DNA of 47,720 nucleotides, taken from the NCBI GenBank assembly GCA_026391415.1, contig JAPLEL010000106.1, positions 1 through 47,720 of the forward strand. The letters run 5' to 3'. Every line of letters begins with the position of its first letter. Positions within the stretch are counted from its first letter, which is position 1. The position numbers were made by a program, and so were the translations under genes. Shown here one piece after another: positions 20,396 to 28,060 of the stretch. This DNA comes from Bacteroidota bacterium. GTDB lineage: Bacteria > Bacteroidota > Bacteroidia > Chitinophagales > Chitinophagaceae. A model generated the notes under the pieces. That model was not told where the DNA came from and did no database searches. It was given only the letters and a program-made list of their open reading frames with translations.

Positions 20396-21934
20396 TTAAC
20401 GATCAACTGCTGGATCTATTTTATTGCTTATATAAATGGCCCCAATAATCATACAAATAGTGGCAATAATTATGGGATACATTAATCCTACAATTTTATT
20501 ATCGGTATAAATAGTGGTTAATAGTGTTGCAATAAATGGTGTTAGTCCACCAAAAACACCATTGCCTATATGGTAAGGTAATGACATAGATGTGTAGCGA
20601 ATTTTTGTAGGAAATAATTCTACTAAAAATGCCGCAATTGGACCATACACAAGGGTTACGTATAAAATGAGCAAAAACACAATACCCACCATTTTCCAAT
20701 AATCATTGCTTGCCAGTGTTTTTGAAATAGCTATTAATGGCTTGATGGTTGCTTTTCCTGGTATGGCATACGCTGTATCCGTTTGTGTTTGCAGCATGGT
20801 CATTCCATCGGTGAAGGTAGTTTTGGTAATTGTTTTTCTGATGAAATCTGTTGAGTTGGCAATAGCGGTAAGATTTGTTTTGATTTCTTTTTTAGCCAAT
20901 ACCTCTGTTTTGGTTTTAACATCAGCTATTTGGTACAAATTAGTAAACAAATAATTGTACGAAATAACTGCTAAAAACATACCCGATAACATAATCCATT
21001 TTCTGCCTATTTTATCACTCAATGAAGCAAAAATTACAAAGAATGGTGTGGCAAAAAGAATCCCCCAAATTAATATGGTACGTGATTGATCAAACTCAAC
21101 CTTACAAACGTTTTCAATAAAAGATTGCGCATAAAATTGACCGGTGTACCAAACAACTCCTTGACCCATGGTAGCGCCAAAAAGCGCTAATAATACCATT
21201 TTTAAATTGGCTTTATTTCCAAAACTTTCTTTTAATGGATTCACAGAAGTTTTTCCTTCTGATTTTAATTTTTCATACAGAGGAGACTCCGCCATTTTTA
21301 GTCTGATATAAATAGACACCACTACTAATAATATAGAAATTAAAAATGGAATCCGCCATCCCCAATCATTAAACTTGGCAATTGATTTGGCAGGATCAAC
21401 ATCTAAAAAATGTCGGGTTAATAAAATAACGCCTAGTGAAATAAATAAACCTAGTGTAGCCGTTGTTTGAATCCAAGAAGTAAAAAAGCCCCTTCTATGC
21501 GCAGGTGAATGTTCTGCTACATAGGTTGCAGCACCGCCATATTCTCCGCCCAAAGCCAACCCTTGAATTAGGCGCAAAATCAATACCAGTATGGGTGCTA
21601 GAAATCCAATGCTTTCGTAACTAGGTATACATCCAATAGCAAAAGTAGAACCTCCCATTAACACAAGCGTTAGCAGAAACGTATATTTTCTACCCACTAA
21701 ATCGCCGAGTCTACCAAACACTAAAGCACCAAACGGACGTACAATAAAACCGGCAGCAAAAGTAGCAAGTGTAGATAAAAGCGCTGCTGTTGGATTAGTT
21801 TTAGGGAAAAACTGGTTGGCAATTACCACGGCTAAACTTCCGAATATATAAAAATCGTACCATTCAATTAGGGTTCCCAGCGAAGAGGCACCAATCACTT
21901 TCCAGATACCTTTTGTTTCGTTATTATTATTCAT
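20396..21934 (-). CDS. MFS transporter, metabolite:H+ symporter (MHS/ProP-like)
   Basis: SSLGTLIEWYDFYIFGSLA, FGRLGDLVGRKYTFLLTL, LIQGLALGGEYGGAATYVAEHSPAHRRGFFTSWIQTT, LSDKIGRKW. Confidence 0.95.
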   Translation of the reverse strand: MNNNNETKGIWKVIGASSLGTLIEWYDFYIFGSLAVVIANQFFPKTNPTAALLSTLATFAAGFIVRPFGALVFGRLGDLVGRKYTFLLTLVLMGGSTFAIGCIPSYESIGFLAPILVLILRLIQGLALGGEYGGAATYVAEHSPAHRRGFFTSWIQTTATLGLFISLGVILLTRHFLDVDPAKSIAKFNDWGWRIPFLISILLVVVSIYIRLKMAESPLYEKLKSEGKTSVNPLKESFGNKANLKMVLLALFGATMGQGVVWYTGQFYAQSFIENVCKVEFDQSRTILIWGILFATPFFVIFASLSDKIGRKWIMLSGMFLAVISYNYLFTNLYQIADVKTKTEVLAKKEIKTNLTAIANSTDFIRKTITKTTFTDGMTMLQTQTDTAYAIPGKATIKPLIAISKTLASNDYWKMVGIVFLLILYVTLVYGPIAAFLVELFPTKIRYTSMSLPYHIGNGVFGGLTPFIATLLTTIYTDNKIVGLMYPIIIATICMIIGAIYISNKIDPAVDR

Positions 21935-22147: not shown

Positions 22148-23446
22148 ATGACAGATCGTACACTAAAACAAACCCTAACACCCACCCTTTTATGGGGATT
22201 GGGCGTTGGCTACGTTATTTCAGGTATGTATTTTGGATGGAACCTAGGGCTCGAAAAAGGAGGTACCTGGGGTATGGCATTGGCAACATTGCTAGTCATT
22301 GTGTTGTACACCTGTTTTAGTTTTTCTTATGCTGAGTTGGCTTGTGCTATTCCAAAAGCAGGTGGGGCTTATGATTATGCCGAACGAGCTTTTAAAAAAG
22401 ATATTGGTTTTATTACAGGATTAGCGCAAATTATTGAATTCGTTTTTGCACCACCAGCTATTGCCATTGCTATTGGTGCTTATTTTAATTTAGCCTTTCC
22501 ACAAGTGCCTATACTAGGTGCCGCCATTACTGTTTATATAATTTTTAGTGCTTTAAATATTTATGGCGTAAAAGCTGCCGCTAATTTTGAATTGATTATT
22601 ACAATTTTAGCTGTGGGAGAATTGCTACTTTTTGCTACCCTTACTTTGCCCCATTTTTCTGCAACAAATTTTTCTAAAAATGCTTTCCCAAATGGATGGA
22701 GCGGTGCATTTGCTGCATTACCGTTTGCCATTTGGTTTTTTTTAGGAATAGAAGGACTAGCCAATGTAGCCGAAGAAACTTTGCACCCACAAAAAGATAT
22801 TATTAAAGGATTTGGATGGGCCTTATTAACGCTAGTGATATTGTGCATCTTGGTATTTGTAGCTGCAATAGGTATTGGTGGATGGGAAGCGATTGTTTAT
22901 ACTACAAACGGCACAAGTTCAGACTCGCCGCTTCCACTAGCACTCGGAAAAATATTTGCCACCAACCATGTATTTTATAAATTATTAATTGGCATTGGAT
23001 TATTTGGACTAGTGGCTTCATTTCATGGATTACTATTAGCTAGCGGAAGGGCCACATTTGAATTTGGAAAAATTGGAAACGCACCTAAGTTTTTAGGGGA
23101 AGTACATGCCCGTTTTCAAACACCAGCAAATGCATTGTTATTTAATTCTTTGTTAGGCGTGCTCATAATTTGCACTGGAAAAACCGCTGAAATTATTATT
23201 ATATCTGTGTTTGGGGCCGTATCAATTTATATCATATCAATGTTAGCAGTTTTAAAATTAAGACGCCAACAACCCGAATTGCACCGACCATTTAAAGTTC
23301 CATTTTATCCTATCACACCCATTATTGCATTGGTATTAGCCATCATTTGTTTAATAGCTTTGTGTTATTATAATGGAATATTAGCTTGCTATTATTTTGG
23401 AATTATATTTTTATTTTTTGTGCTATATAAAATTTTAAAAAAATGA
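22148..23446 (+). CDS. APC-family permease, ethanolamine permease-type
   Basis: LLWGLGVGYVISGMYFGWNLGLEKGGTWGMALAT, CAIPKAGGAYDYAERAFKKDIGFITGLAQIIEFVFAPPAIAIAIG, NVAEETLHPQKDI; resembles the bacterial ethanolamine permease subfamily. Confidence 0.85.
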   Translation: MTDRTLKQTLTPTLLWGLGVGYVISGMYFGWNLGLEKGGTWGMALATLLVIVLYTCFSFSYAELACAIPKAGGAYDYAERAFKKDIGFITGLAQIIEFVFAPPAIAIAIGAYFNLAFPQVPILGAAITVYIIFSALNIYGVKAAANFELIITILAVGELLLFATLTLPHFSATNFSKNAFPNGWSGAFAALPFAIWFFLGIEGLANVAEETLHPQKDIIKGFGWALLTLVILCILVFVAAIGIGGWEAIVYTTNGTSSDSPLPLALGKIFATNHVFYKLLIGIGLFGLVASFHGLLLASGRATFEFGKIGNAPKFLGEVHARFQTPANALLFNSLLGVLIICTGKTAEIIIISVFGAVSIYIISMLAVLKLRRQQPELHRPFKVPFYPITPIIALVLAIICLIALCYYNGILACYYFGIIFLFFVLYKILKK

Positions 23447-24792
23447 GTACCGAACAAATTATTGAGTATGTAAGTAACCATCCATCTGGCAGGGTAAAAG
23501 TTGCAGTAACAGATATTGATGGTGTGTTGCGCGGCAAATATATTTCTAGCGAAAAGTTTTTATTGGCAGTTACTGGCAACCTAGGATTCTGTGATGTGAT
23601 TTTTGGATGGGATATGGCCGACCAAGCATACGATAACAATAGTTTTACAGGATGGCATAGTGGCTATCCTGATGCCAAAGTAAAATTGAGTATTAATAGT
23701 TTTAGAAAAATTCCTTGGGAAAATGATTTGCCATTTTTTTTAGGAGAATTTGTTGACGCAAAAGGCAATGCACTTGAAATATGTCCGCGTCAATTATTAC
23801 AAAAAATTATTGCAAATGCTACTGCAGCAGGATTCGAAGCAAAGTTTTCGCAAGAATTTGAATGGTTTAATTTTATTGAAACCCCAAAAACATTTGCAGA
23901 AAAAGAAGGCAAACACCTTACACCATTAACACCTGGCATGTTTGGTTATTCTATTTTAAGAAGCAGCGAACGCAATGATTTTTTCTCGGCATTATTTAAT
24001 CAGTTAAAAGACTTTGATATTCCGTTAGAAGGTTTGCATACCGAAACCGGACCCGGCGTTTATGAAGCAGCCATTACTTATAGTGGCGTATTACAAGCCG
24101 CAGATAATGCTAGTTTATTTAAAACAGCTGTTAAAGAAATTGGATACAAGCACGGCATCTTAGCCAGCTTTATGGCAAAAATAAATGAGCAATTACCTGG
24201 CTGTAGTGGACACGTTCACCAATCGCTTTGGCAAAATAATGCCAATGTATTTTACAATGCAAATGAGCCTAACAATATGAGTGAAACCATGCAACAATAT
24301 GTGGCAGGTCAATTATTTTGTTTGCCGCATATTTTGCCAATGGTAGCACCAACAATTAACTCTTACAAACGTTTGGTAGAAGGTGCTTGGGCGCCAACCA
24401 CGCTTACCTGGGGATTAGATAATAGAACAGTTGCCTTGCGTGCGCTAACCGAAGGAAGTAAATCTTGTAGGCTAGAAACAAGGGTGGTAGGTAGTGATAC
24501 CAATCCGTATTTAGCAATTGCCGCTTGTTTGGCAGCAGGCCTCTATGGTATTCAACACAAACTAAGTTTGCAAGCAGCAACCACTGGTAATGGTTATAGA
24601 GACGAAAGCAATGGACGCTTTCCAAAAAGCCTAGACGATGCTACACAAGCCATGAAAAATTCTGCTATTGCAAAAGAACTATTTGGCGAAACATTTGTAA
24701 ATCATTTTACACAAACACGCGAGTGGGAAGTAAAACAATTTGCCAAAGTTGTTACCGATTGGGAAACAAAACGCTATTTTGAAATTATCTAA
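23443..24792 (+). CDS. Glutamine synthetase-like ligase (gamma-glutamyl-amine/amino-alcohol synthetase)
   Basis: VAVTDIDGVLRGKYIS, GLHTETGPGVYEAAITYS, FMAKINEQLPGCSGHVHQSLW, RLVEGAWAPTTLTWGLDNRTVALR, RLETRVVGSDTNPYLAIAA; 4-bp overlap with the upstream permease. Confidence 0.92.
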   Translation: MSTEQIIEYVSNHPSGRVKVAVTDIDGVLRGKYISSEKFLLAVTGNLGFCDVIFGWDMADQAYDNNSFTGWHSGYPDAKVKLSINSFRKIPWENDLPFFLGEFVDAKGNALEICPRQLLQKIIANATAAGFEAKFSQEFEWFNFIETPKTFAEKEGKHLTPLTPGMFGYSILRSSERNDFFSALFNQLKDFDIPLEGLHTETGPGVYEAAITYSGVLQAADNASLFKTAVKEIGYKHGILASFMAKINEQLPGCSGHVHQSLWQNNANVFYNANEPNNMSETMQQYVAGQLFCLPHILPMVAPTINSYKRLVEGAWAPTTLTWGLDNRTVALRALTEGSKSCRLETRVVGSDTNPYLAIAACLAAGLYGIQHKLSLQAATTGNGYRDESNGRFPKSLDDATQAMKNSAIAKELFGETFVNHFTQTREWEVKQFAKVVTDWETKRYFEII

Positions 24793-24852
24793 ATATCATT
24801 GCAGTTCTAAAAGATTTACTTAATAATTATTTAAAGCAACAAATAAAAACCA

Positions 24853-26022
24853 ATGGCCATTTCGCAATTTAATTTTCCTACTACCATTCGTTTTGGAGCA
24901 GGCGTTGTAGCAGAACTTCCTGCCTATTTAAAAAACAACCAACTATCAAAACCTTTTATTTCAACAGATCCTACCATTGCTGGATTAGATTTTTTTAAAG
25001 CCATTGTAGCAGATTTAACTGCCAAAGGATTTAGTGTAACAGTGTTTCATGATATTCATAAAAACCCTGTAAAGTCTGATGTTTACAAAGGAGCCGATGC
25101 TTACGATGCAGGTGAATGCGATTGTATAATAGGTATTGGTGGTGGCGCTGCCATAGATGTAGCAAGGGCTATTTTACTACGCATTAATCACCGCGAAGAT
25201 TTATTTAAATACGATGACTTAATTGGTGGTGATGTTTATGTAACGAATGATGTGCCTCATTTTATTACGATTCCAACCACTGCTGGAACAGGTAGCGAAG
25301 TTGGTCGCTCCGCTATTATTGCCGACGACGAAACGCACCAGAAAAAAATATTGTTCTCTCCAAAATTATTGGCAAAAATTGTTTTTGCAGATCCAGAACT
25401 TACCATGGCCCTTCCTGCATTTATTACTGCAGCAACTGGCATGGATGCACTAACACATAATATGGAAGCATTTCTAGCAAAAAACTACCATCCTATTTGC
25501 GATGGTATTGCTTTAGAAGGCATGCGTTTAATTGCTAATTCTATTGAACAGGCAGTAAAAAATCCTACCATCGAATCAAGGTCAGATATGTTATTGGCGT
25601 CTATGATGGGTGCTATTGCTTTTCAAAAAGGACTCGGCGTAGTGCATTCATTGGCACATCCCTTATCTAGTTTATTAGACACGCACCATGGTTTGGCCAA
25701 TGCGGTGAACTTGCCTTATGGTATGCAATTTAATAGTGCCGGATTTGAAGACCGTTTTGTAAGAATGGCAAAAGCGTTGGGTATTGCCAATGAATCTAGC
25801 GAAGGTGTTGTGGCTTATTTATTTGATTTAAATGATCGATTGGGTATTCCAAAAACACTTTCAGGTATTGGTGTTGAGCAGGCACATATAGAAACCCTGG
25901 CCGATTTAGCATTTGCAGATTTTGCACATCCTAATAATCCAAAACCTGTAAGTAGAAATGATTTTAAATTACTGTACGAAATTGCTTGTTGGAGAATAAA
26001 ATTTGTATTGGCATTTGTGTAA
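24853..26022 (+). CDS. Iron-containing alcohol dehydrogenase
   Basis: IIGIGGGAAIDVARAI, IPTTAGTGSEVGRSAII, TGMDALTHNMEAFLAKNYHPICDGIALEG, GVVHSLAHPLSSLLDTHHGLANAVNLP. Confidence 0.95.
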   Translation: MAISQFNFPTTIRFGAGVVAELPAYLKNNQLSKPFISTDPTIAGLDFFKAIVADLTAKGFSVTVFHDIHKNPVKSDVYKGADAYDAGECDCIIGIGGGAAIDVARAILLRINHREDLFKYDDLIGGDVYVTNDVPHFITIPTTAGTGSEVGRSAIIADDETHQKKILFSPKLLAKIVFADPELTMALPAFITAATGMDALTHNMEAFLAKNYHPICDGIALEGMRLIANSIEQAVKNPTIESRSDMLLASMMGAIAFQKGLGVVHSLAHPLSSLLDTHHGLANAVNLPYGMQFNSAGFEDRFVRMAKALGIANESSEGVVAYLFDLNDRLGIPKTLSGIGVEQAHIETLADLAFADFAHPNNPKPVSRNDFKLLYEIACWRIKFVLAFV

Positions 26023-26699
26023 CGGAAGCAAAGTTTCCTAATTATCCAACTTGGATTTTAGGCGATTCGCAAAACATAGAAATTATAGAACTATCTGCTG
26101 GTAAACAAAATAAGTTGGAACTACAAAAATGTCATGCTTTATTATTATCTGGTGGCATAGATGTAGATCCTTTTTTTTATAACCCTGCACTTATAGATTA
26201 TCCAAATAAACCATTGGCATGGAACCGCGAACGCGATGAATTTGAAATCGATTTATTTCAATCGGCACTCGCTCTATCTATGCCTGTGTTGGGTATTTGC
26301 AGAGGATTACAATTAGTAAATGCGGCACTAAAAGGCACACTTACCCCAGATATTGAAGCCACCGGAAAACAAAATCATAGAAGCGAAGGTGGGAATGATT
26401 ATATACATACCGTTTCCTTAATTGAAAAAAGTTTGTTAGCAAATATTACTGGTGTAACAGAAGGAACAGTTAATAGTGCGCACCACCAATCAGTTGAAAC
26501 AATTGCACCAGATTTAATAGTCAATTGTTATGCAGCAGAAAATATAGTAGAAGGCATTGAATGGAAAGACGCTACTAATAAATCGCCATTAATTTGTGTG
26601 CAATGGCATCCTGAAAGAATCAACAATAATAATACCAACCCGCTATCGAAAAATATCCGTGAGTGGTTTTTAAGTGAAGCAATAAAATATTCCAAATGA
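25986..26699 (+). CDS. Class I glutamine amidotransferase-like peptidase C26, PuuD-like gamma-glutamyl hydrolase
   Basis: LLSGGIDVDPFFYNP, PVLGICRGLQLVNAALKGTL, VNSAHHQSV, CVQWHPERI; TTG start inferred, 37-bp overlap with Fe-ADH. Confidence 0.9.
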   Translation: MLENKICIGICVTEAKFPNYPTWILGDSQNIEIIELSAGKQNKLELQKCHALLLSGGIDVDPFFYNPALIDYPNKPLAWNRERDEFEIDLFQSALALSMPVLGICRGLQLVNAALKGTLTPDIEATGKQNHRSEGGNDYIHTVSLIEKSLLANITGVTEGTVNSAHHQSVETIAPDLIVNCYAAENIVEGIEWKDATNKSPLICVQWHPERINNNNTNPLSKNIREWFLSEAIKYSK

Positions 26700-28060
26700 A
26701 TTGTATTAATCCAGCAACAGCCCTTAGCATTGGTCAAATAACAACAGATACCGAATTAAGTATTCAAAATAAAATAAACGCATTACGCATTGGTCAACCA
26801 GTTTGGGCCGCTATTCCTTTAACAGAAAGAATTAGCATTTTGCAACAATTTGCAAAACTATTACAAACACATATTCAAGAAGCTGCGGCAGTATTAACCA
26901 GTGAAGTAGGAAAGCCCTTGCAACAAGCGGTAAATGAAATAAATGGTGCTTGTGCTAGAATTGATTGGCTTACAAATAATGCCCCAAAAGCTTTACAAGA
27001 AGAATGGATGGTAGAGACAGGTAGCACTCGCGAAAAAATTATATACGAACCACTAGGCATTGTATGTAATATTTCTGCCTGGAATTATCCGTACTTAGTT
27101 GGAACAAATGTTTTTGTACCAGCACTATTGGCAGGAAATGCAGTGTTATACAAACCTTCTGAGCTATCTAGTTTAACCGGACAAATCATTGAAAAATATT
27201 TACACGAAGCAGGTGTTCCAGAAAATGTATTTCAAATGGTTGCGGGAGATAAAGCCGTTGGTGAACTATTGTTGCAAGCAGATTTAGACGGATACTTTTT
27301 TACAGGTTCTTATAAAACAGGAAAATATATTTACGAGCAAGTAAGTAAAAAAATGAAGCCTTGTGGATTAGAATTGGGCGGCAAAGATCCATTATATATT
27401 ACAGAAGACACTACAGATATTGCAACAATAGCAGCCAACACCGCCGATGGGGTATTTTATAACAATGGCCAAAGCTGTTGTTCGGTAGAAAGAATTTATG
27501 TGCACGAAAAAGTATACGACGCTTATGTTGCTGCCTTTGTAACAGAAGTACAATCATATACTATAGGAGATCCAATAACCGCAAATACTTATATCGGTCC
27601 ATTAACCAGAAAAGAACAACCCGCATTTTTAGCAGCACAAGTAGCAGATGCTATACAAAAAGGAGCAACACTATTATGTGGCGGAAAAATAATGGATAGA
27701 ACAGGCAACTATTTCGAACCAACTGTTTTGGTAAACACAACACACCAAATGGATTTAATGAAAGAAGAATCTTTTGGACCCATCATTGGCATTATGAAAG
27801 TTGCAAATGATGCAGCAGCAATTGCACTAATGAACGACACTGATTATGGTTTAACAGCAGGTGTTTATTGCAACAACGAAACAAGGGCCGCTAACATACA
27901 AGCTCAACTAAATGCAGGAACAGTATATTTAAATTGTTGCGATAGAGTAAGTGCGGCGCTTCCATGGAGTGGTAGAAAAAATAGTGGTTTTGGTAGCACA
28001 CTTTCTTATGTTGGCATACGAATATTTACACAATCAAAAGCGTATCATTTAAGGAGTTAA
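26696..28060 (+). CDS. NAD(P)-dependent aldehyde dehydrogenase
   Basis: SAWNYPYLVGTNVFVPALLAGNAVLYKPSE, FTGSYKTGKYIYEQ, GLELGGKDPLYI, FYNNGQSCCSVERIYV, EESFGPIIGIM. Confidence 0.95.
   Translation: MNCINPATALSIGQITTDTELSIQNKINALRIGQPVWAAIPLTERISILQQFAKLLQTHIQEAAAVLTSEVGKPLQQAVNEINGACARIDWLTNNAPKALQEEWMVETGSTREKIIYEPLGIVCNISAWNYPYLVGTNVFVPALLAGNAVLYKPSELSSLTGQIIEKYLHEAGVPENVFQMVAGDKAVGELLLQADLDGYFFTGSYKTGKYIYEQVSKKMKPCGLELGGKDPLYITEDTTDIATIAANTADGVFYNNGQSCCSVERIYVHEKVYDAYVAAFVTEVQSYTIGDPITANTYIGPLTRKEQPAFLAAQVADAIQKGATLLCGGKIMDRTGNYFEPTVLVNTTHQMDLMKEESFGPIIGIMKVANDAAAIALMNDTDYGLTAGVYCNNETRAANIQAQLNAGTVYLNCCDRVSAALPWSGRKNSGFGSTLSYVGIRIFTQSKAYHLRS

Follow-up and report, generated by a model that had tools for sequence, protein, structure and literature searches.

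A five-gene operon in a Chitinophagaceae bacterium that probably encodes ethanolamine catabolism by gamma-glutamylation

Described gamma-glutamylation systems

Ethanolamine is a building block of membrane lipids. When Phaeobacter uses phosphorylethanolamine, it induces an operon of glutamine synthetase (GS), aldehyde dehydrogenase (ALDH), alcohol dehydrogenase and hydrolase genes with a TRAP transporter, the four enzymes being annotated as ethanolamine gamma-glutamylase, gamma-glutamylacetylaldehydeamide dehydrogenase, gamma-glutamylethanolamide dehydrogenase and gamma-glutamylglycine amidohydrolase, respectively (PMC10132767). Earlier work on this eto pathway was done in C. salexigens and A. 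tumefaciens, as cited in PMC10132767. The eto operons of Phaeobacter, Ruegeria and Paracoccus, and of C. salexigens and A. tumefaciens, comprise an RpiR regulator gene, an N-formylglutamate-amidohydrolase-type hydrolase, the EtoVWX TRAP transporter, a GS, an ALDH and an iron-containing alcohol dehydrogenase (Fe-ADH) (PMC10132767; our loci L086, L112 and L113). On a Ruegeria plasmid with the same gene order as the Phaeobacter operon, we found the alcohol dehydrogenase to be iron-containing. In Streptomyces, GlnA4 glutamylates ethanolamine in vitro, and the same downstream steps have been proposed (PMC6529630; reviewed in PMC9397018).

The operon analyzed here shares with the eto operon a GS-like ligase, an Fe-ADH, an ALDH, a hydrolase and a predicted ethanolamine importer encoded together. 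However, its ligase belongs to a different clade, its importer is an APC permease rather than a TRAP transporter, its hydrolase is of the C26 family rather than an N-formylglutamate amidohydrolase, its gene order differs, and no RpiR gene lies beside it. The Streptomyces GlnA4 cluster (SCO1610-1615) likewise encodes a ligase, an alcohol dehydrogenase, an ALDH and an amidotransferase-type hydrolase, with a permease in many species (PMC6529630), but has a short-chain dehydrogenase (SDR) in place of the Fe-ADH. The Ipu clusters of Paenarthrobacter TC1 (L084) and Aminobacter SR38 (L114) resemble the operon in having a GS-like ligase, an amidotransferase and amino-alcohol amide intermediates, but they include a P450/ferredoxin hydroxylation step and lack an Fe-ADH. 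The E. coli Puu pathway shares the GS-like ligase, the ALDH and the PuuD-type C26 hydrolase, whereas its FAD oxidase and putrescine transporter are absent from our operon. Uncharacterized GS-ALDH-Fe-ADH-amidotransferase operons of Legionella lytica and Photobacterium (L083, L110) also place a related ligase (43 to 44% identity) beside an Fe-ADH and an ALDH, but they have no permease gene and carry a PRK05665-like class-I amidotransferase instead of the C26 hydrolase.

Layout and conservation of the operon

The window, i.e., the whole stretch of DNA analyzed, was positions 1 to 47,720 of contig JAPLEL010000106.1 of assembly GCA_026391415.1 (Bacteroidota, Chitinophagaceae). Five open reading frames, all on the plus strand, occupy positions 22148 to 28060:

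22148 to 23446, plus strand: APC-superfamily ethanolamine permease of the Eat type (TIGR00908)
23443 to 24792, plus strand: GS-like ligase (PF00120), proposed gamma-glutamyl-ethanolamide synthetase
24853 to 26022, plus strand: iron-containing alcohol dehydrogenase (PF00465/PF25137), proposed gamma-glutamyl-ethanolamide dehydrogenase
25986 (TTG start) to 26699, plus strand: PuuD-like Peptidase_C26 hydrolase (143.3 bits), proposed gamma-glutamylglycine hydrolase
26696 to 28060, plus strand: NAD(P)-dependent aldehyde dehydrogenase (PF00171), proposed gamma-glutamyl-aminoacetaldehyde dehydrogenase

The first-pass annotation had described five co-directional, tightly overlapping genes here. Profile searches upheld the five frames and their family assignments, and three of the junctions do overlap, by 4, 37 and 4 nt; the wording was nevertheless slightly overstated because one real gap, of 60 nt, separates the GS and Fe-ADH genes. 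The start codon of the hydrolase is either of two TTGs in succession, which places it up to 37 nt within the Fe-ADH frame. Divergent from the operon, a gene for an MFS (Sugar_tr) transporter lies on the minus strand at positions 20396 to 21934.

A GTDB genome scan for the ligase yielded 80 Bacteroidota loci, 57 of them with full flanks. The complete five-gene set was found in order at 39 of the 80 loci and at 36 of the 57, and the arrangement is, given these counts, not a matter of chance.

Ligase, permease and dehydrogenases as evidence for the substrate

The ligase matched the Gln-synt_C profile (PF00120) at 318.7 bits, whereas its scores against the profiles of true GlnA (219 bits, cut-off 429) and of gamma-glutamylputrescine synthetase (190 bits, cut-off 650) were far below threshold. 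The metal, glutamate and ATP residues checked were all kept (E138, E140, E201, E208, H257, R310, R328, R333, E345 and R347). Two other GS-family genes are present elsewhere in the host genome and can, we infer, serve ammonia assimilation; the operon's ligase is distinct from housekeeping GS. Trp316 stands where GSI has the flap residue Glu327, a position at which the alignment with GSI is firm, whereas it is gappy around GSI residues D50 and Y179. In our alignment, Trp also occupies this position in the Ipu ligases and in the Bacteroidota ligases linked to an SDR, and Phe in the proteobacterial and actinobacterial eto-clade rows. PauA7 has Trp here as well (PMC6529630).

In the ligase tree, the window ligase fell in a separate clade of 15 rows (support 100/100), which lies within a larger one (29 rows, 98/99) that also takes in rows from Legionella, Photobacterium, Burkholderia and Rhizobium and stands apart from IpuC as well as from the eto clade. 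The latter contained structure 5dm3, which we take to be the C. salexigens ligase, together with the roseobacter eto ligases and SDR-linked ligases of the host's order; GlnA4 was represented by stand-ins from the actinobacteria Embleya and Nonomuraea, both of which fell there. Identity was 37 to 40% to the Ipu ligases, with about 40% to IpuC, and 33 to 35% to the eto ligases. Since the ligases known or annotated to act on ethanolamine (5dm3, Ruegeria, Embleya) form a clade without the window ligase, the latter should not be filed as an eto-clade enzyme, which does not bar the pathway assignment. We found no characterized member of its own clade, and ethanolamine is for this reason a substrate that we infer from the company the ligase keeps.

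The permease, a predicted ethanolamine importer encoded with the ligase, scored 438.8 bits against the ethanolamine permease profile TIGR00908 (cut-off 381.75), and no polyamine-transporter profile matched it above its cut-off. Among the five genomes of the host's order that carry eutB, the nearest homologue of this permease (44 to 46% identity) directly adjoins eutB in four, and the identity of EutB at these permease-adjacent loci (L132, L133) was verified with its Pfam profile. Elsewhere in the order, homologues with 61 to 64% identity accompany eto-clade ligases (L115 to L120). Overall, a permease with at least 54% identity was found in 59 of 199 genomes of the order, 58 of which also carry a GS of the window clade or the eto clade. 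One transporter type is thus common to two ligase clades.

These permease data bear on the strongest alternative, that the same chemistry serves mainly another short amino alcohol, such as 1-amino-2-propanol, L-alaninol or 3-aminopropanol, or several of them. The ligase's placement in an uncharacterized clade nearer to IpuC than to the eto ligases favors this alternative, as the IpuC product is processed to gamma-glutamyl-alaninol (PMC6776027). However, the permease passes the cut-off of the ethanolamine profile and has homologues that accompany eutB or eto-clade ligases, while the operon, which has no P450 or ferredoxin gene for isopropylamine hydroxylation in or beside it, differs from the Ipu clusters also in this respect. 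We therefore consider another main substrate rather unlikely. Slightly less unlikely, in our estimate, is the broader proposal that the window ligase clade was recruited independently of the eto ligases for a different or wider range of amino alcohols, as a separate phylum-wide pathway that converged on the eto gene set.

The Fe-ADH (PF00465/PF25137) contains Asp198, His202, His269 and His278/279, the hydrolase has Cys105-His208-Glu210 in place, and the ALDH (425.4 bits against PF00171) has Cys261/262, Glu226 and Asn130; these residues are expected to be metal ligands in the first enzyme and catalytic residues in the other two. An alcohol dehydrogenase, an ALDH and a gamma-glutamyl hydrolase are hence encoded beside the ligase. 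The Fe-ADH is related to those of the eto operons (38 to 40% identity), and among the 1569 plasmid records with a match, its best relatives were mostly Fe-ADHs adjoining GS-like genes in operons of the eto type, from Legionella, Paracoccus, Ruegeria and Marinovum. Its clade (support 100/100) stands apart from the FucO (lactaldehyde), PDO (1,3-propanediol) and MDH (methanol) dehydrogenases of known structure; two of its members (L135, L136) have no GS nearby. Window-clade ligases (at least 47% identity) were found in 65 of the 199 genomes of the host's order and the Fe-ADH in 49, of which 48 carry the ligase and one does not (Fisher P = 2e-30, a value that is only indicative since genomes were counted as independent, ignoring shared ancestry). 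In all 16 genomes in which the ligase locus lacks an Fe-ADH, a single Fe-ADH with 71 to 80% identity was present elsewhere. It lay with both C26 and ALDH genes in 4 of them and with a C26 gene in 2 more, neither being seen beside it in other split-locus genomes.

The dehydrogenase data also weigh against Puu-like degradation of putrescine or of another diamine or monoamine, in which the alcohol dehydrogenase would serve something else. The GS-like and PuuD-like families and the weak gamma-glutamylputrescine synthetase match are what such a pathway would share with the operon, but the block has no FAD amine oxidase gene, its permease is of the Eat type, and its Fe-ADH goes with the ligase in nearly all Fe-ADH-bearing genomes; we consider this pathway very improbable. 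Least probable of all is a 4-hydroxybutyrate/GABA route in which the Fe-ADH and ALDH turn 4-hydroxybutyrate into succinate and the GS and C26 genes are incidental. In its favor, the best NCBIfam matches are 4-hydroxybutyrate dehydrogenase (342 bits against a cut-off of 500) and succinic semialdehyde dehydrogenase (352 against 521); the ALDH is below every equivalog cut-off among the 25 matches listed. However, the Fe-ADH hardly ever occurs where the GS is missing, and an eto-operon Fe-ADH matches the same NCBIfam profiles with the same sub-threshold best match (353.7 bits), which marks that match as family background and led us to reject this route.

With these alternatives weighed, gamma-glutamylation of ethanolamine is probably what the operon encodes. 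The permease would import ethanolamine, and the ligase would join it to the gamma-carboxyl group of glutamate at the expense of ATP. The Fe-ADH would then oxidize the terminal CH2OH of gamma-glutamyl-ethanolamide to the aldehyde, gamma-glutamyl-aminoacetaldehyde, which the ALDH would convert to gamma-glutamylglycine. Finally, the C26 hydrolase would release glycine and glutamate, the latter being recycled, and glycine could pass to the glycine cleavage system; GcvP is present in the host genome. This sequence of intermediates, already set out in the first-pass annotation, remains the best reading, supported by the permease contexts (eutB and eto-clade ligases) and the kinship of the Fe-ADH. 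The proposal that an alcohol dehydrogenase takes the place of the amine oxidase is supported here as well, but it is not new, having already been proposed for the Phaeobacter/Roseobacter eto operons.

For the B12-dependent route, a search with PF06751 found no EutB in the host genome, which is 91% complete, while the E. coli control was positive, in agreement with the expectation that this operon occurs without EutB. Co-absence of eutBC had also been suggested as a check of the pathway, and for EutB we saw no signal: it is rare in the order (5 of 199 genomes) and does not avoid the ligase, a GS relative being present in 2 of the 5 as well (Fisher P = 0.66), so that its absence neither supports nor refutes the ethanolamine reading.

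Related clusters and the assembly of the pathway

Ligase relatives also occur in other settings. In a group of Bacteroidota loci from genomes without the Fe-ADH or permease (L127:7976-11233, and also L124, L125, L126, L128, L129 and L130), relatives with 51 to 61% identity adjoin a conserved protein of 339 to 356 amino acids, often followed by a HAD-IIA phosphatase. The one such protein tested had no Pfam match, and its structural model, of modest confidence (pLDDT 73), resembles small-molecule kinases of the aminoglycoside-phosphotransferase fold; these loci possibly represent an undescribed ligase-kinase-phosphatase system. With relatives in such contexts, members of the clade may not all accept the same substrates. 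At most Emticicia-group loci (L026, L030, L056, L058, L061, L062, L069 and L072), the ligase is flanked by an ATP-grasp-like gene and by a GntP-family permease, and the Eat permease is missing; the Fe-ADH was elsewhere in the genome in all four genomes tested. On a Rhizobium leguminosarum plasmid (L081:6086-10329), a ligase relative (47%) is found with a GMC oxidoreductase, an ALDH and a C26-annotated hydrolase, near a 2-aminoethylphosphonate transaminase; the GMC oxidoreductase may be yet another enzyme employed for the alcohol oxidation. In the host's own order, the loci that pair the window-type permease with an eto-clade GS (L115 to L120; 42 to 45% identity to the Ruegeria eto ligase) mostly also encode an SDR, an ALDH and a PRK05665-like class-I amidotransferase, a set that resembles the Streptomyces GlnA4 cluster and makes up a second cluster of ethanolamine type in this order.

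As the pathway was already proposed for Phaeobacter/Roseobacter with an Fe-ADH and for Streptomyces with an SDR, it is not a new one. In the literature searched, we found no such ethanolamine route for Bacteroidota. We regard the operon as probably encoding the eto/GlnA4 pathway, built here from a ligase of another clade, an APC permease and a hydrolase of the PuuD type. The parts of this pathway are freely exchanged, with two ligase clades, an Fe-ADH or an SDR, three hydrolase types, and APC or TRAP uptake. With the ligase clade in 65 of 199 sampled genomes of the order and the Fe-ADH in 48 of those 65, our results point to B12-free and microcompartment-free use of ethanolamine in many Bacteroidota, by a differently assembled version of a known pathway that is common in this phylum.
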